This document shows positions 14,677-33,861 of a stretch of 33,861 nucleotides of DNA, one piece after another. Positions within the stretch are counted from its first letter, which is position 1; each line of letters opens with the position of its first letter. A model generated the notes under the pieces. That model ran no database searches and was not told where the DNA came from. It was given only the letters and a program-made list of their open reading frames with translations. The stretch is from the NCBI GenBank assembly GCA_937870635.1, contig CALMZP010000124.1:1-33861 (forward strand), given 5' to 3'. The DNA is from an uncultured Acidobacteriota bacterium. GTDB taxonomy: Bacteria > Acidobacteriota > Thermoanaerobaculia > Gp7-AA8. Position numbers and translations under genes: made by a program.

Positions 14677-14682
14677 TACAAT
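14677..14682 (+). promoter_or_regulatory. -10 box of the AhpD-like gene
   Basis: TACAAT 8 bases ahead of ATG 14691, directly behind the L25 terminator. Transcription would start 1-2 bases before the ATG; no Shine-Dalgarno site is present. Confidence 0.5.
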
Positions 14683-14690
14683 ACGCGCCC

Positions 14691-15230
14691 ATGTCGAGAC
14701 TCTCGAAGCTGACCAGAGACCAGGTGCCGCCCGACGTGCGGGAGATTTACGTCAAGGTGGGCGAGCTGCGCGGAAACGTTCCCAACATGTTCCGGGTGTT
14801 CGCGCATCGCCCCGAGATCATGAAGACGATGGTTGCGCATCTCAACGCCGTGACAAACACCGGCACTGTGCCGGTCAAGACGAAAGAGCTGGTGGCGACG
14901 CTCGTGTCGCGCATGAACCGCTGTATCTATTGAGACCGTTCCCACACCGCGCAGGCTGCGCGGCACGGAGCGGGGGACGGCGAGCTGGCGGCGTTGCTCG
15001 ATTTCGAAAACGGACCTTTCAGCGAGGCGGAGAAAGCGGCGCTGGCGTGGGCGCAGCAGCTGACGCTCGACGCGCATGCAATCGACGATGCCCTGTTTGA
15101 GAGGGTGAAGAAGCACTACGATGAGGGGGAGATCGTCGAAATCTCGGCGATGGCCGGCCTTTTCAACTATTTCAATCGCGTCAACGACGCGTTGCATATG
15201 GAGCCGACGAAACCAGGCGAGGGACTATGA
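14691..15230 (+). CDS. AhpD-like/carboxymuconolactone decarboxylase-family protein, probable selenoprotein (in-frame TGA as Sec)
   Basis: Read through the TGA at 14931-14933, this is a 179-residue AhpD-like protein. Residues before it (KELVATLVSRMNRCIY) and after it (DRSHTAQAARHGAGDG, then FSEAEKAALAWAQQLT) are both family-like and in one frame with no shift. The TGA is codon 81, giving C78-x-x-U81-x-x-x-H85 with E66 twelve residues before C78: the AhpD catalytic layout, with Sec replacing the peroxidatic Cys. A hairpin (14936-14980, GG in the apical loop about 20 bases after the TGA) fits a bacterial SECIS. The likely role is reduction of peroxides or a related thiol reaction. It overlaps the next gene, a thioredoxin-fold lipoprotein, by 4 bases. 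If TGA means stop, the gene is a pseudogene or a sequencing error split into 80 and about 78 codons. Confidence 0.82.
14936..14980 (+). promoter_or_regulatory. candidate bacterial SECIS hairpin
   Basis: Starting 2 bases after the TGA, CCGTTCCC (14936-14943) can pair with GGGGACGG (14973-14980, one G-U pair). Inside, CCGCGC (14947-14952) pairs with GCGCGG (14958-14963), closing the loop AGGCT with GG at 14954-14955. GG in a small apical loop 16-37 bases after UGA is the bacterial SECIS pattern recognised by SelB. The region is GC-rich, so chance folding is possible. Confidence 0.6.
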
Positions 15231-15790
15231 AGACGCGAATGATCGTGGGGCTCATGCTGCTGGCGGCCATGACGGGCTGCGGCGAACGCCGCGAGGCCGC
15301 GGCGCCCGTCGAACCGGCGGCGGCTCCTGCGCCCGAGCGGGCCGTGGCTCCCGCCGTTGTCACGCTGGGCAGCGTCATGCCCGCGTACACGGCAAAACTC
15401 CTCGACGGTTCGGACTTTGACGTGGCGAAGGAACGCGGCAACGTCGTGTTCCTCAACCTCTGGGCAACGTGGTGTGGTCCCTGCCGTTATGAGATCCCCG
15501 AGCTGGAGAAGCTCCACAAGGACCACGGGGCCTCGAGGTTCAAGGTCGTCGGCGTCAGCGTGGACGAGGGCGGCGACCAGCTCGTCCGCGATTTCGTCAA
15601 CGAACAGAAGATGACCTATCCCGTGGCACTTGATCCCGACGGCCGTCTCGCGGAGATGCTGGAGACGACGATCCTTCCGACGTCGATCATTCTCGACAGG
15701 GAGGGGAAGGTCGTGTGGAAGCACTTCGGCGTTGTGACGGTCAGCGACCCTGAGATGATGAAGGCGCTCGAGGCCGCGCTCAAGTCGTAG
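15227..15790 (+). CDS. TlpA-like thioredoxin-fold lipoprotein
   Basis: A 187-residue membrane-anchored thioredoxin-fold protein. The signal peptide ends in a lipobox (LAAMTGC, Cys 20), followed by an Ala/Pro-rich linker to about residue 45. The TlpA/ResA-type domain has LNLWATWCGPCRYEIPEL with the redox pair CGPC, VVGVSVDEGG, and the cis-Pro in ILPTSIILD. Such proteins reduce disulfides or feed electrons to partner enzymes on the outer face of the membrane. Its ATG overlaps the stop of the AhpD-like gene (ATGA), so the two are translated together and probably work together; however, that partner lacks a signal peptide, so direct electron transfer between them is uncertain. Confidence 0.92.
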   Translation: MKTRMIVGLMLLAAMTGCGERREAAAPVEPAAAPAPERAVAPAVVTLGSVMPAYTAKLLDGSDFDVAKERGNVVFLNLWATWCGPCRYEIPELEKLHKDHGASRFKVVGVSVDEGGDQLVRDFVNEQKMTYPVALDPDGRLAEMLETTILPTSIILDREGKVVWKHFGVVTVSDPEMMKALEAALKS

Positions 15791-16637: not shown

Positions 16638-17219
16638 ATGAACGTTCGCGTGACGGTTTACAGCCGCCCCGACTGCCACCTCTGTGACGTAGCGAAGGCT
16701 GCCATTGCCGCGTCCGGGGTCGATGTCACGCTGCGCGAGGTGAACATCGACGACGATCCGGCCCTCCGCCGGCGTTACACGAACGACATCCCCGTGATCG
16801 AGATCGACGGGGTCGAAGCGTTTCGCCATCGAGTCGACGCGAAGGCGTTCCGGGAGTACGTCGAAGGTCGCGGGCGCGGCCGCTCTCCGCTCGCTGCCGA
16901 GGCGTGCGTCCCGTGTCGAGGCGGTGTACCGCCGATGCGTGGCGAGCAGCTCCGGGCCGTGGCGTCCGAACTGGGCAATGGCTGGCGCGTCGTGGATGAG
17001 CATCACCTCGAGAAGGAGTTCCGCTTTCCCGATTTCGCGGAGGGACTCTCTTTTACGAACGCCATCGGCGCCATTGCGGAGCGCGAAGGCCACCATCCCG
17101 ACATTCACCTCGCCTGGGGAAAGGTGGGCGTGAAAATCTGGACTCACAAGATCGACGGCCTCACCCGAAGCGACTTCGTCCTGGCGGCAAAGATCGACCA
17201 GATCCTGCCCGCGAGTTGA
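16638..17219 (+). CDS. glutaredoxin-like domain fused to pterin-4a-carbinolamine dehydratase
   Basis: A 193-residue two-domain protein. Residues 1-80 are a small glutaredoxin/DUF836-like fold: VTVYSRPDCHLCDVAKAA has a CxxC, followed by VNIDDDPALRRRYTNDIPVIEIDG with the cis-Pro. Residues 90-193 are a complete PCD/DCoH domain: CVPCRGGVPPM, FRFPDFAEGLSFTNAIG, the active-site EGHHPD, and THKIDGLTRSDFVLAAKID. PCD recycles the 4a-hydroxy-tetrahydropterin made by aromatic amino-acid hydroxylases; many bacteria use PCD for other, unclear roles. A fusion with a redox domain is unusual. There is no Shine-Dalgarno; TAAGCT (16626-16631) sits 6 bases before the ATG. Confidence 0.9.
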   Translation: MNVRVTVYSRPDCHLCDVAKAAIAASGVDVTLREVNIDDDPALRRRYTNDIPVIEIDGVEAFRHRVDAKAFREYVEGRGRGRSPLAAEACVPCRGGVPPMRGEQLRAVASELGNGWRVVDEHHLEKEFRFPDFAEGLSFTNAIGAIAEREGHHPDIHLAWGKVGVKIWTHKIDGLTRSDFVLAAKIDQILPAS

Positions 17220-27142: not shown

Positions 27143-28840
27143 TCAGTGAAAGTCGTGACTGCTCACGCCATCCACCCCGTGAAGCGGCCAGAATTTCTCC
27201 GCCTTGATCGAGCACTGGCCGCCGGTGTTCTGGAGGATGCCTTCCACGATCAGGCCGGAGTTGCCGAGGATCGTGGCGCGATGCTCACGGAAGAGCGGAG
27301 GGCTGACGATCGCCTGCGACATCCCCGTCTCGTCCTCGAGCGTGAGGAAGACGAATCCCTTCGCCGTTCCCGGACGCTGGCGGACGATGACGGCGCCCGC
27401 CGTGGTCACGCGCCGTCCCGTGGGAATGCGCTTCAGGTCGAGCGCGGTGAGGATGTTGTCGCGCTTCAGGGCCTTCCGGTAATGCTCGAGCAGATGTGCG
27501 CCGGTGGTCAGCTCCATGGCGTTGTAATCGGCGGCCGTTTCCTGGATGGACGACATCTCGGGAAGTGGAGAGGACGCGGGCGAGGTCGCCCGCGCTCCAC
27601 CTTCGAACAACTCTCCTGCCGGCTTCGCCGCCTTCGATGCCTGCCAGAGCGCGGCGCGGCGCGTGAGGCCGAGTGATCCGAGAGCACCGGCATAGGCGAG
27701 CTTCGTCATCTGGTCGTCGCGCAGACGGCACCGGAAGGCGAGGTCGTCGACCGAGGTGAATGGCTGCGCCGCTTCGATCGTCTTCGCCGTCGTTTCGCGC
27801 AATCCTTTGATGAAGCGCAATCCCATCCGCACGCCCCCCTTTTCCCAGCGGCACATCCACCCGGAATGATTGACATCGATGGGATGGACGGCGACATCGT
27901 GGCGCTGCGCGTCCTTCACCAGAGTGGCCGGATGGTAGAAGCCCATCGGCCACGCATTGAGCAGCGAGACGTAGAACGCTGCCGGATGGCGCGCCTTCAG
28001 ATAGGCGCTCGCGTAGGCGAGGAGCGCGAAGCTCGCCGCGTGCGATTCCGGGAACCCGTACAACGCGAACGACGTGATCGACTTCACGATCTGATCCTGC
28101 GCGGCGCCGCCGATGCCGTTCTTCGTCATGCCGTCGCGCAGACGCTTCTCGATCTCGTGCATCCGTTCCATCGACCGCTTGAACCCCATCGCCCGGCGCA
28201 GCTCCTCGGCTTCACCGCCGGTGAAGTTCGCCGCGACCATGGCGATGCGCAGCAGCTGTTCCTGAAAGAGCGGCACGCCGAGCGTCCGCTTGAGAATCGG
28301 CTCGAGACAGGGATGCGGATATTCGACGGGAACTTTTCCCTGACGCCGGTCGAAGAAGGGCCGGATCATGCCGCCGACGATCGGTCCCGGGCGAATGATC
28401 GCCACCTGCACGACGATGTCGTAGAACTTCTTCGGCGCATTGCGGGGGAGCGACGCCATCTGCGCGCGGCTCTCCACCTGAAACATCCCTACCGTATCCG
28501 CCTCGTTCAACATCCTGTAGACGACTGGATCGTCCGCGGGAAGGTGAGCGAGATCGACCTCGATGCCCTCATTCTTGCGGATCATCGGAATCGCTTCCTC
28601 GATCGCGGCCAGCATGCCAAGGCCGAGGAGGTCGACTTTGATGAGGCCGAGGTCGGCGCAGTCGTCTTTGTCCCACTGGATGACGACGCGGCCGGGCATC
28701 GAGGCCGGCTCGAGCGGCACGACCTCGTCGAGACGCCCCTTTGCCATGACCATGCCGCCGGAGTGCTGGCCGAGGTGCCGGGGCAGATTCTGGATCTGCA
28801 TGTAGAGGCGCATGAAGTGCTGGACCCGGCGATCGGCCAG
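27143..28840 (-). CDS. dnaE2: DnaE2-type DNA polymerase III alpha subunit, C-terminal half (5' truncated)
   Basis: Only the C-terminal ~565 residues of a protein normally about 1,050 long are present. Family marks: LPRHLGQHSGGMVMA, PGRVVIQWDKDDCADLGLIKVDLLGLGM (with the third catalytic Asp in KVDLLGLG), IIRPGPI, VPLFQEQLLRIAM, FALYGFPESHAASFALLAYASAYLKA, then an OB-fold region near the end. The PHP domain and the first two catalytic Asp are missing. DnaE2 carries out error-prone synthesis in damage tolerance with ImuA/ImuB. Homology stops at about 28,840, where autotransporter sequence begins on the other strand; the frame runs on 69 bases but encodes unrelated residues. An in-frame palindrome copy sits in the linker at 27565-27600. 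Confidence 0.9.
   Translation of the reverse strand: MADRRVQHFMRLYMQIQNLPRHLGQHSGGMVMAKGRLDEVVPLEPASMPGRVVIQWDKDDCADLGLIKVDLLGLGMLAAIEEAIPMIRKNEGIEVDLAHLPADDPVVYRMLNEADTVGMFQVESRAQMASLPRNAPKKFYDIVVQVAIIRPGPIVGGMIRPFFDRRQGKVPVEYPHPCLEPILKRTLGVPLFQEQLLRIAMVAANFTGGEAEELRRAMGFKRSMERMHEIEKRLRDGMTKNGIGGAAQDQIVKSITSFALYGFPESHAASFALLAYASAYLKARHPAAFYVSLLNAWPMGFYHPATLVKDAQRHDVAVHPIDVNHSGWMCRWEKGGVRMGLRFIKGLRETTAKTIEAAQPFTSVDDLAFRCRLRDDQMTKLAYAGALGSLGLTRRAALWQASKAAKPAGELFEGGARATSPASSPLPEMSSIQETAADYNAMELTTGAHLLEHYRKALKRDNILTALDLKRIPTGRRVTTAGAVIVRQRPGTAKGFVFLTLEDETGMSQAIVSPPLFREHRATILGNSGLIVEGILQNTGGQCSIKAEKFWPLHGVDGVSSHDFH
27565..27600. repeat. GC-rich palindrome inside dnaE2
   Basis: GTGGAGAGGACGCGGGCGAGGTCGCCCGCGCTCCAC: on the minus strand it reads GTGGAGCGCGGGCGAC then CTCGCCCGCGTCC, nearly the same as the intergenic copy at 22047. 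It keeps the dnaE2 frame and encodes GGARATSPASSPL in an apparent linker before the OB-fold region. Confidence 0.85.
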
Positions 28841-31800
28841 TATGCGACGGCTGTCGGCGGCGGCACGGCCTCCAACTCGATTGCCAACAGCGGCACCATC
28901 GCAATCCATGCGACGGCGTTCGCAAGCGCGCAGAGCTTTGCCTATGCGAGCGCGAGCGTGAGTACCGGCATTCTCCAGTCGGCGAATGCAACCGGCACCG
29001 CCCTGGGCAATACCGCCAATGCGGTGAATTCGATCACCAACAGCGGCACGATTGATATCCTGGCCAGTGCTTCGGCGGTTGCTGCAGGGATCGTTGCGCC
29101 GGCCTCGGCGACAGCCATAGTGGTTGGATCCGCCACGGCGGTTGCCGCGGTCGGGACCGGGATTAACCAGTTTGCGTCCGCCAGCGCGGCGACGAAGACG
29201 GCCGCCACGGTGGTCATCGGTGGCACGACGATCGTCACGTACAACAATAACGGCGTGGCGAACGCGTCCAACACCATCACCAATAGCGGCACCATCAACG
29301 TGGTTGCTGACGCCTTTGCATCCGCGGCTTTTGCGGAAGCTTACGCCAGTATCGATGACGGCATCCAGCAGGATGCGATCGCTTTCGGCGGCTCCGGTGC
29401 GACAGCTGCGGTCTCGTTGACCAACGCTACTGGCGGCGCCATCAATATTGTTGCCGACGCGGGCGCTAACGGCATTTTCACAGCCTTTGCCAGTGCGAGC
29501 GTTGAAACCGGGATCGACCAGGAAGCTGAAGCCTTCGTCAAAGAAGGCACGGCAATAGCGGACGTTTCACTCGACAATTCCGGCTCGATCACCGTCATTG
29601 CCGATGCCAATGCGGTGGCAAGTGGAACCGGCGTGTTTGGCACTCCGATTGCGGGTTCGGCGACGGCATTTGCCTTCGTTGGCACCGGCATTAATCAGAC
29701 TGCTTTTGCTAGTGGATTCGGCGTTCAGACACTTACCCACACAGCGGGAAGCACCCTCCTCTTCACGTTTGCGGGCTCTGCCTCGGCGGCTGCTTCGCTG
29801 ACCAACAGCGGCGCGATCACGATCGTCGCCGATGCCGATGCGGCAGGCGGCAGCGCGTGGGCGGCGGCCTCGGTAGGCACGGGCCTCGACCAGAATGCGG
29901 TCGCGTTCGGCGTCAGTGCCGCCGATGCCTCGGCTTCGATCGTCAACGATGGCACGTTCGCAGTCGTCGCCGATGCGAATGCCTTGGGGACGTCGGCTGC
30001 TTTTGCTACTGCCTTCGTCGGCACGGGTATTGAACAGAGTGCCACCGCGGTTGCCATATCGGGGACCGCGACTGCCAATGTGAGCCTCACGAACAGCGTC
30101 AGCATCGCAGTCGGTGTGGACGCGTTTGCATCCGCTTCGTCCTTTGCTTTCGCGGGTGCTTTCCTCAGCCAGGGCATCGATCAGAACGCCTTCGCCTCGG
30201 GATCGGCCGGTACTGCTTCGGTGTCGCTGGTTAACAGCGGCGATATCTCCGTTGCGGTCGACGCCTCGGCGACTGCCTTGTTCGCGATCGCGATCGCGTC
30301 GATCAGCTCCGATGCCATCGACCAGAACGCAACCGGCGTTGACCAAGCGGTCGTGTCTCTCAACAACAGCGGCACCATTTCAATCACCGCCGAGGCGGAC
30401 GCGGGCAACATCGGCACCTCGACCTTCGCGCTCGCCAGCGCCTTTATCGCAACCGGTATCAACCAGAGCGCGTTCGCGTTCGGAACCGGCGGAGCGGCGA
30501 CGGTTACGCTCGTCAACACCGGCGGGATCCTGATTTCCGCCGATGCGGTCGGTGCGCTCGCGAGCGACGGCTCGGCCGCAGCATTTGCGGTGATCGGCTC
30601 GGCGATCCTCCAGGTTGCTGCAGCTTCGTCCGCGGCAAACGTCGGACTGCTCAACGACGACACGATCCTCGTCCTTGCCGATGCGTCGGCGATCGCTGAC
30701 GAGGATGCGACCGCGGTCGCCGGGATCGGCGCCTTCATCGTTCAGTCGGCAAGCGCTTTCGGAACGGGCGGCGATGCCAACGTGGCGCTCACGAACAACA
30801 GCGTGTTGGTTGCCGATGCTGACGCACTCGCGATCGGCGGCAACGACGTGTTCGCAAGCGCGTTTGTCGGCTCCGGAATCATCCAGGTGGCTTCTGGTGG
30901 AACGACCGGCACCGCCGGTGCCTCGCTCGTCAACAACGGGCTGATCAGCATCACCGCTGATGCCGAAGGCATTGGCGGTGGCACGGGCACCGGCCTCGCT
31001 TTCGCTAGCGGCGGAGTGCAGATTGCCGCGGCCGGTTCGGGCGCGGTGGCGAGCATCGACAACAACGCGACGATGGTCGTCGCGGCCGAAGCCGACATCC
31101 TCGTCGGTAATGCCGCGCAGAAGGGCGCGAGCGCGTTCGCAAGCGCAGTAGCTCTCGGTTGGCTGCAGGTTGCGGCCGCATCCACGTTCACCGGGACCGG
31201 TACGGTCATTTTCACGACCGCTGCGGCGGCTTCAGTCACGCTCACTAACGTTGGCTTCCTGGTGACCTTTACGGGTGTAACCAGCCCGAGTGGTCCGGCC
31301 CTTGCGATCCTGGACAACAGCGGCGCGATGAGCGTCACGGCCGGCGCGAGCGCGGTCGGCGACGACCTCGTCGCCGCCATCGCGGTCGCCAGCGGTTTCA
31401 CCCAGGTTGCTGTCGGGTCGCCCGCGGAAGCCGTGTTTCTCAATGGCCCTGCCGGCACAGCGACGGCCGGCGGGACGCTGGTAGTCGCGGCTTCGGCCTT
31501 CGCGTCAGGCGACAACTCGGGTTCGGCCATCGCGATTGCCGATGCGATCGACCAGACGGCAATTGCCGCGCAAACGGTCACCCAGTTCATCCTCGGTGGC
31601 ACCGCCACCGTGCACTTCACTACCGGTGGCGGAACCATCCTTGCGGTCGAGGACAGCGCGCAGCTGATCCTTGGCTTCGCGAACACGCCGGTCGGCCCAG
31701 CCAATGCGTTGGTCGTCAACAGCGGCATTATCGACGTAGCGGCAACTGCGACTGCGATCGTCAACGGCAACCAGGGCCCGGTGACCCAGACCACGGCTCC

Positions 31801-33861
31801 GGCTTTCGCACTGGCGGCCGCTGACGGCATCGACCAGTTCGTGCGTGGCGATCCCGCCTCGGCCACCGTCGTCAACAGCGGCAGCCTCGAGGTTACCGCG
31901 GCCGCGCTGGCTTCTGGTGTTACCGGTGCGGCGGCCCTCGCCTTCGCAACCGGCATCTCGCAGGTCGCGTCGGCAGTCGCCTTCACTTCGGCGCTGTTCT
32001 TCCACCTCGAGACGTTCACCACGACCGATGTCTTCGGCCACACGAACACCTTCCAGACCTTCACTCTGACTGGCACGGCCTTCGCGGCCACCAACGTCGG
32101 CCAGGCGACGGTCAACCTCGAAAACAGCGGGGTTATCGAGGTGGTCGCGGTCGCAAGCGCGGTCGCTGGAAGCACCGGGACGGCAGCGGCCTTCGCCGCG
32201 GGCGCCTTCCAGGCGGCATTCGGAACGTCGGCCAACGCCAATGCGGTCAACAGCGGGACGATGGACGTCTTCGCCGTAGCGGACGCTTCGGGCACCTTCG
32301 CGGTGGCCTCGGCGGGCGCCATCGGCCTCGGCCAGTTCCTCTCCGGCACCGCGATGAACGCGTCGTTCTCGAACACAGGCGAGCTGCTAGTCGCAGCGTT
32401 CGCGGACGCGACCGGCACGTCCGGCGTGGCCTTCGCCAGCGCGACCGGCTACTCGGTCGTCGGCGCAGGCGGCGGGACGCTCAATGTCGATATCTTCAAC
32501 AGCGGCTCGAGCATCATCGTCGCGGCCGAAGCGGTCGCTCCGGGAACTGCATTCGCGTCCGCGGACGGCATTTTCGTCGCCAACCTGCCGACGTTCACTG
32601 GAACGGCGACGCTCGGCAACCCGGTCTCGGGCAACCTGACCAACGCCGGGCTCATCGACGTCCTTGCCTTCGCTTCTGGTGGAACATTCACCACGCCGAC
32701 CGGAACGACGGGCACCGGAGTGACGACGATCGCGTTGAGCAGCGCGTTCGCCAACGGCATCGAGATCCTCAGCGGTGTCAACACGATGACCGTGACCAAC
32801 ACCGGCGTGATCCTCGTCGATGCGATTGTCGCCAACGGCGGCACTGCGTACGCGGCCGGCCTGCTAGTAAAGGCCAACGGCGCCGCGGTTCCGGCCGTCG
32901 GCGACGTGTTCACCTTCACCAACGACGGCGGAACGATCATCGTCCGCGAGTCGGTGGATGGCGGTGCGACGTTCCGGCGCGGGATGGCGATCGACGTTGC
33001 CGCTGCGGCGAACAACTCGGTCATCAACCTGCTCGGTGACGGCTACATCTACGGCAACATCGACGTGCAGACGGGCGACCAGATCTTCGTCGAGGCGGGC
33101 ACCACCGTGTTCGACGGGATTGTCAATCCCGAGTGCATGCCGCCGGTGTTCGATGATCCGCTCGTCTCCGGCTGCGGCCAGGGCACGCTGACGATCCAGA
33201 ACGGGGGCAACCTTTACCTGGTCGACGGCAACGACGACCCGACGATGGATGACGGACCGTCCTACGTCTTCGTCAACACCTTCAACATGGGTGATACCGG
33301 CACGATCACGTACGAGCTGCACCCGACTGCGGGCGGTGGAACGCAGGCGATCGGCACCTATCCGCAGGTGTTCGCTGACGTTGCCAACCTCGACGGGACT
33401 CTGGTTGCCGACATCACGCTGGCGACCCCGCTTCCGGCCGACAGCTACTTCTGGAACAACGTCATCGACGCGAATGTCCGCAACGGCGTCTTCGACGAGT
33501 GCATCATCCTCGGGTTCCCGGGGGCAGGCGCGCCGGGCTCGCTGTTCCTCGACGGAGGCTGCATCTACGACAGCCAGGCCAACGTCGACATCGGCATCGA
33601 GCGGATCGGCTTCGACGAGATCGCCGGGCTGACCCCGAACCAGCTGGCCGTGGCCGGCGCCCTCGAGGCGGTCTATTCGCCGACCCTGACGGGGCCGTTC
33701 GGTAACCTCATCCTGCAGCTGTTCAACTTCGAGGACGGCGACGAGGCGCTCTTCGGCGATGCCCTCGATATGCTCAGCGGCGTCGAGTATCCGAACTACC
33801 TGCACGCGGTCCGGAACAACACGTTCGTTCTGAACAGCTTCGTGTCGGATCAGATCGACTG
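28832..33861 (+). CDS. giant Ala-rich autotransporter adhesin-like protein, partial at both ends
   Basis: A single frame of 1,676 codons with no stop, running off the window. Residues 1-1350 are made of repeated units of about 45-55 residues: a core like NSGTI or NNSGTISI, then an Ala/Asp-rich stretch (ADAxAxA), then GIxQxAxA. This fits a right-handed beta-helix passenger. A non-repetitive part with four Cys follows (about 33,120-33,580), and NQLAVAGALEAVYSP near 33,640 looks like the start of a linker to an autotransporter barrel, which lies outside the window. No start codon or signal peptide is seen; the frame enters from within the antisense of dnaE2. The protein would be surface-exposed and could serve in adhesion. 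It resembles autotransporters of Alphaproteobacteria more than the rest of the window (from memory, unverified). Confidence 0.85.
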   Translation, partial: MGQYATAVGGGTASNSIANSGTIAIHATAFASAQSFAYASASVSTGILQSANATGTALGNTANAVNSITNSGTIDILASASAVAAGIVAPASATAIVVGSATAVAAVGTGINQFASASAATKTAATVVIGGTTIVTYNNNGVANASNTITNSGTINVVADAFASAAFAEAYASIDDGIQQDAIAFGGSGATAAVSLTNATGGAINIVADAGANGIFTAFASASVETGIDQEAEAFVKEGTAIADVSLDNSGSITVIADANAVASGTGVFGTPIAGSATAFAFVGTGINQTAFASGFGVQTLTHTAGSTLLFTFAGSASAAASLTNSGAITIVADADAAGGSAWAAASVGTGLDQNAVAFGVSAADASASIVNDGTFAVVADANALGTSAAFATAFVGTGIEQSATAVAISGTATANVSLTNSVSIAVGVDAFASASSFAFAGAFLSQGIDQNAFASGSAGTASVSLVNSGDISVAVDASATALFAIAIASISSDAIDQNATGVDQAVVSLNNSGTISITAEADAGNIGTSTFALASAFIATGINQSAFAFGTGGAATVTLVNTGGILISADAVGALASDGSAAAFAVIGSAILQVAAASSAANVGLLNDDTILVLADASAIADEDATAVAGIGAFIVQSASAFGTGGDANVALTNNSVLVADADALAIGGNDVFASAFVGSGIIQVASGGTTGTAGASLVNNGLISITADAEGIGGGTGTGLAFASGGVQIAAAGSGAVASIDNNATMVVAAEADILVGNAAQKGASAFASAVALGWLQVAAASTFTGTGTVIFTTAAAASVTLTNVGFLVTFTGVTSPSGPALAILDNSGAMSVTAGASAVGDDLVAAIAVASGFTQVAVGSPAEAVFLNGPAGTATAGGTLVVAASAFASGDNSGSAIAIADAIDQTAIAAQTVTQFILGGTATVHFTTGGGTILAVEDSAQLILGFANTPVGPANALVVNSGIIDVAATATAIVNGNQGPVTQTTAPAFALAAADGIDQFVRGDPASATVVNSGSLEVTAAALASGVTGAAALAFATGISQVASAVAFTSALFFHLETFTTTDVFGHTNTFQTFTLTGTAFAATNVGQATVNLENSGVIEVVAVASAVAGSTGTAAAFAAGAFQAAFGTSANANAVNSGTMDVFAVADASGTFAVASAGAIGLGQFLSGTAMNASFSNTGELLVAAFADATGTSGVAFASATGYSVVGAGGGTLNVDIFNSGSSIIVAAEAVAPGTAFASADGIFVANLPTFTGTATLGNPVSGNLTNAGLIDVLAFASGGTFTTPTGTTGTGVTTIALSSAFANGIEILSGVNTMTVTNTGVILVDAIVANGGTAYAAGLLVKANGAAVPAVGDVFTFTNDGGTIIVRESVDGGATFRRGMAIDVAAAANNSVINLLGDGYIYGNIDVQTGDQIFVEAGTTVFDGIVNPECMPPVFDDPLVSGCGQGTLTIQNGGNLYLVDGNDDPTMDDGPSYVFVNTFNMGDTGTITYELHPTAGGGTQAIGTYPQVFADVANLDGTLVADITLATPLPADSYFWNNVIDANVRNGVFDECIILGFPGAGAPGSLFLDGGCIYDSQANVDIGIERIGFDEIAGLTPNQLAVAGALEAVYSPTLTGPFGNLILQLFNFEDGDEALFGDALDMLSGVEYPNYLHAVRNNTFVLNSFVSDQID

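Follow-up and report, generated by a model that had tools for sequence, protein, structure and literature searches.

Probable AhpD-like selenoprotein with a covarying SECIS hairpin in an uncultured Acidobacteriota bacterium

RESULTS

An in-frame TGA interrupts an AhpD-like gene. We examined a 33,861-nucleotide stretch of DNA from an uncultured soil bacterium of the Acidobacteriota (the window) and found a gene that, judging from comparative sequence evidence, almost certainly encodes an AhpD-like selenoprotein (TIGR01926, carboxymuconolactone-decarboxylase fold) with UGA read as selenocysteine (Sec). The frame opens at the ATG at 14691, meets a TGA at codon 81, and then runs through 98 sense codons (82 to 179) to the stop TGA at 15228-15230 (Table 1). 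An initial sequence-only reading had described this arrangement, including 98 further codons up to the TGA at 15228, a C-x-x-[TGA]-x-x-x-H motif, and a Glu 12 residues ahead of the first Cys. The sequence matches that description. The motif is present as C78-I-Y-[TGA81]-D-R-S-H85, and the distance from E66 to C78 is exactly 12 residues.

Upstream of the gene, TACAAT is found at 14677-14682, 8 nt ahead of the ATG at 14691, with no clear Shine-Dalgarno sequence. A -10-like hexamer just ahead of the ATG is also found in the related loci L061 and L065, while L063 has GGAGG. The start of the selenoprotein gene is possibly leaderless.

Table 1. Coordinates of the gene, its predicted recoding signals, and associated features
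Feature	Coordinates	Strand	Details
AhpD-like (TIGR01926, peroxidase-related) gene, predicted selenoprotein	14691..15230	+	179 residues, predicted Sec at 81
Predicted Sec-encoding TGA, codon 81	14931..14933	+	Orthologue alignment and Sec machinery in the genome
Putative active-site codons	14886..14945	+	E66 14886-14888, C78 14922-14924, Y80 14928-14930, Sec81 14931-14933, H85 14943-14945
Bacterial SECIS core hairpin	14947..14963	+	CCGCGCA (14947-14953), loop GGC (14954-14956), TGCGCGG (14957-14963); 7/7 pairs
Predicted lower stem	14936..14973	+	14936-14942 with 14967-14973; single-sequence MFE fold
TlpA/ResA-like thioredoxin-fold lipoprotein gene, WCGPC	15227..15790	+	Pfam Redoxin/AhpC-TSA; ATGA overlap with the stop of the selenoprotein gene
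selD (L017)	G000:C118:60682-61620	-	Sec-containing, GGUACK

The TGA is conserved among orthologues. Within the family and class, 10 genomes (the source genome included) carry an orthologue with a single TGA at codon 81, and one carries TGC. A scan of named genomes returned 58 loci, mainly from Acidobacteriota; others came from Chloroflexota (Ktedonobacterales), from one Gemmatimonadales contig, and from a few oddly labelled entries. After merging, we compared 36 distinct Sec-form sequences (TGA, window gene included) and 23 Cys-form sequences (TGC or TGT). The alignment with Cys homologues that the sequence-only reading had called for does place Cys at codon 81 in them, and related genomes have the TGA at the same codon with intact frames downstream. 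Pooled over eight orthologues, pN/pS was 0.27 before the TGA and 0.26 after it.

One rival explanation is that the TGA arose as an error in sequencing or assembly, or through a recent change from Cys to stop that left a pseudogene. TGC and TGT are each one base from TGA, and the window is a contig of a draft assembly (4.52 Mb, 98.7% complete, 171 contigs), both of which speak for such an origin. However, independent assemblies from several phyla contain the same TGA, 36 distinct sequences in all, purifying selection persists beyond it, and a covarying hairpin, described below, is confined to the TGA copies. We give an artifact or fresh mutation next to no credence; for practical purposes, an error of sequencing, a pseudogene, and a nonsense mutation of recent date are excluded. 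It is also very improbable that the TGA is a real stop and that the locus yields either a pair of proteins or a truncated product under regulation. UGA recoding competes with termination, and some truncated product is therefore expected, but a stop at this codon would cut within the catalytic motif, the aligned residue is Cys in all Cys orthologues, and the protein is colinear with its family over the full length.

L116 (4001-4539), a Terriglobia copy with three more in-frame TGAs, a GTT rather than GGC loop, and a long branch, is a decayed or frameshifted copy. L093, L101, and L109, labelled Rhodanobacteraceae or Proteobacteria, cluster within Acidobacteriaceae or Ktedonobacterales in the tree and are either mis-binned contigs or cases of transfer. 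Related genomes also hold more divergent AhpD-type ORFs that contain a single in-frame TGA (L036, L039, L044, and L045; e.g., CTYU, CHYU, CVFU, and CEFU), which are candidates for further AhpD-like selenoproteins within the same taxonomic class. Searches of phage records gave remote matches only (24.7% identity at 93% query coverage and 31.6% at 72%).

The genome encodes the Sec machinery. The source genome contains selA, selB, selD, and tRNA-Sec (selC), the four genes for which a search had been proposed from the sequence. Neither missing sel genes nor relatives with disrupted downstream frames, named at the outset as grounds for rejecting a selenoprotein, were found. The selB match scored 349.7 bits against a cut-off of 242.25, and the tRNA-Sec has the anticodon TCA. 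Since selD also has an in-frame TGA, within GGUACK, and is thus a Sec-containing SelD, the genome makes use of the Sec trait at another locus as well. Across the orthologue set, selA was above cut-off in 33 of 36 Sec-form genomes versus 3 of 23 Cys-form genomes (Fisher p 9e-10), counts that are uncorrected for relatedness and include many draft MAGs. The absence of selA from three Sec-form draft genomes probably reflects incompleteness.

A covarying hairpin follows the TGA. The published criteria for bacterial SECIS elements, in the available text of PMC13188914, are a loop of 3 to 9 nt, a stem of 4 to 16 bp, a G in the first two loop positions, a spacing of 16 to 37 nt, and an MFE of at most -7.5 kcal/mol. 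The hairpin downstream of the TGA falls within all of these, with a GGC loop, 7 bp, a spacing of 20 nt from the TGA, and -24.5 kcal/mol. This MFE was obtained for a 45-nt fold at the window hairpin (z -3.04), and for longer RNAs the fold was scarcely more stable than in shuffles (z -1.23 and -0.57). In so GC-rich a region, single-sequence folding carries less weight, and the case for the hairpin therefore rests on covariation. An Rfam search returned no SECIS match, only chance hits, and this was a further reason for testing the hairpin by covariation.

Over 35 Sec-form sequences, 99.6% of hairpin cells were paired, and five of the seven pairs had changed on both sides. Double-change cells numbered 58 in the Sec set versus 15.4 in shuffles, a difference not to be read as a probability because the sequences are related by descent, and sliding the partners abolished the signal. 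In the Cys forms, 32.9% of hairpin cells were paired, about the shuffle level. The RNAalifold consensus over the Sec forms was exactly the 7-bp hairpin and nothing beyond it; the predicted lower stem lies outside this all-Sec-form consensus and is weakly supported. Taken together, the hairpin downstream of the TGA is a genuine SECIS element. The original proposal that UGA stands for selenocysteine thus gains support from the orthologous TGA codons, the Sec machinery, the covarying hairpin, and the selA correlation. Recoding at codon 81 would then proceed through SelB and Sec-tRNA(Sec), guided by this hairpin, and we infer that Sec is actually inserted there.

Family, active site, and fold. The read-through protein scored 56.9 bits against Pfam CMD PF02627 (cut-off 23) and 94.3 bits against NCBIfam TIGR01926 (cut-off 81.8; residues 2-173 over model positions 1-176 of 178), which bears out the early claim of one AhpD-like protein without a frameshift. 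It was absent from the matches to TIGR00777 (AhpD proper, Mycobacterium tuberculosis type), a model that 3 of 11 members match, weakly. Two related AhpD-domain selenoprotein families were considered and rejected, as the protein is far below the cut-offs of both NF053654, YciW-related (75.4 bits versus 310), and NF041238, AhpD-related (38.6 bits versus 175).

In alignment A1, E66, Y80, residue 81, and H85 are invariant, and C78 is nearly so. Together, E66, C78, Y80, Sec81, and H85 make up the complete set of proton-relay residues known from AhpD-like proteins. An AlphaFold model of the read-through protein is helical, with pLDDT 91.6 and pTM 0.86. The best PDB matches to it were the AhpD-like 2prr and the Deinococcus radiodurans protein DR1765 (6k40), at TM 0.87-0.88. 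The fold and an E..C.YC...H relay are shared with DR1765 and with PA0269 of Pseudomonas aeruginosa (2o4d/2ijc), whose relay E36-C48-Y50-C51-H55 has identical spacing (PMC3141380). Both proteins differ in having Cys in place of Sec81, and identity is 28-30% by structural alignment. M. tuberculosis AhpD (1knc, 1gu9) also has identical spacing in E118/C130/H132/C133/H137 (PMC3141380), but with about 12% identity, TM of about 0.6, and another chain topology, it is not of the same family. The position of Sec81 corresponds to Cys51 of PA0269 and Cys133 of M. tuberculosis AhpD.

Neighboring genes. A TlpA/ResA-like homologue lies downstream in five of seven related loci (L060 to L063 and L066), but neither L064 nor L065 showed one; in the window, this gene is a possible operon partner of the selenoprotein gene. 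On the upstream side, rplY directly adjoins the selenoprotein gene in six of the seven family loci. Farther downstream in the window, an ORF at 16638-17219 fuses a glutaredoxin-like domain (PF05768) to a pterin-4a-carbinolamine dehydratase (PF01329), with a full-length match downstream in L062 and L063. At the window end (28900-33800) are long, low-complexity putative ORFs on the minus strand, rich in Ala, Val, Pro, and Thr, which lie past a fragment of a DNA polymerase III alpha gene (27143-28909).

Exchange of Sec for Cys. At residue 81, the 36 Sec and 23 Cys sequences have U or C without exception. C78, the first Cys of the motif, is Cys in 36/36 Sec forms, and Thr (TxYC) takes its place in 22/23 Cys forms. 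On a tree inferred after masking residues 78 and 81, three Sec/Cys changes are needed, and every Cys lineage is surrounded by Sec forms. Three Sec-to-Cys changes are the simplest reading, with the rooting uncertain because the outgroup branches are long. Thr occupies position 78 in two of the three Cys lineages (a large Acidobacteriaceae clade and L084), and the third, L104, keeps CxYC.

Losses affect C78 but never residue 81. Residue 81 therefore seems to be the essential one of the two and is more likely to be the attacking (peroxidatic) residue, in agreement with the sequence-only reading. Sec at this position may also raise the activity, as that reading proposed. We tentatively suggest, at somewhat below even confidence, that Sec and the first Cys are coupled in this clade, such that the change of Sec to Cys brings that of C78 to Thr and would turn a CxxU selenenylsulfide enzyme into a one-Cys TxxC enzyme with altered chemistry; this coupling of Sec loss with first-Cys loss rests on two independent events.

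DISCUSSION

By analogy with structural relatives, we favor peroxide reduction as the main activity, with moderate confidence. Sec81, activated by the His/Glu relay, would attack a (hydro)peroxide or other small oxidant. C78 would then resolve the selenenic acid to a selenenylsulfide, which a thiol reductant would open; both the substrate and the reductant are conjectural. PA0269 shows weak, thiol-dependent reduction of H2O2 (PMC3141380), and a D. radiodurans mutant without DR1765 is sensitive to H2O2 (PMC8945050).

The fold also includes the debrominase Bmp8 and the AhpC reductant AhpD, and its members therefore need not be peroxidases. The protein could be a selenoprotein of this fold that acts instead as a thiol-disulfide reductase or adaptor for a peroxiredoxin, as AhpD does for AhpC, or in reductive dehalogenation, as does Bmp8. 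In M. tuberculosis, AhpD takes electrons from DlaT and hands them on to AhpC (PMC12028322), the Bmp8 structures (6ohi/6ohj) fit our model at TM 0.86, and the stop codon of the selenoprotein gene is overlapped by the gene for a thioredoxin-fold lipoprotein. However, PA0269 and DR1765 favor peroxide defense in close structural relatives, Bmp8 is the weaker match by sequence (66.9 bits versus 90.6 bits for 2pfx), and the neighboring TlpA-like protein, judging from a lipoprotein-like signal in its sequence, is probably extracytoplasmic. A literature search on Bmp8 returned nothing. Such a role is a real but less probable alternative to peroxide reduction.

Standard gene-calling programs break the gene up or cut it short at the catalytic residue, and it would therefore be missed or mislabelled in such genomes. 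Our data document an AhpD-like selenoprotein in mostly uncultured Acidobacteriota. In addition, the 36 Sec and 23 Cys sequences form a natural series of Sec/Cys exchange, and presence or absence of the SECIS hairpin goes along with the exchange. The missing partner Cys of the Cys forms makes it possible to test which roles of Sec go beyond those of Cys. If Sec and the first Cys are truly a coupled unit, this contrasts with the simple Sec/Cys swap that is usually assumed. The CxxU-to-TxxC switch is the sole part of the finding for which we found no description, in a limited literature that likewise held no resolving-Cys link for AhpD selenoproteins.

AhpD-like CxxU selenoproteins themselves are already known. 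According to the available text of each source, 27 such sequences came from the Sargasso Sea data in 2005 (PMC1088965), AhpD-like 1 and AhpD-like 2 selenoproteins were described from the GOS data (PMC2398784), and a 2026 review lists TIGR01926 CxxU (PMC13188914). Nearly all Cys orthologues in our set are TxYC, a switch that goes unmentioned in the available text of these three sources. As far as that text describes them, the known proteins share with ours the CxxU motif, the TIGR01926/CMD assignment, and a SECIS element directly 3' of the UGA. The window protein differs in coming from Acidobacteriota, with relatives in Ktedonobacterales and Gemmatimonadales, and it is well supported that its gene adds a member to this established group.
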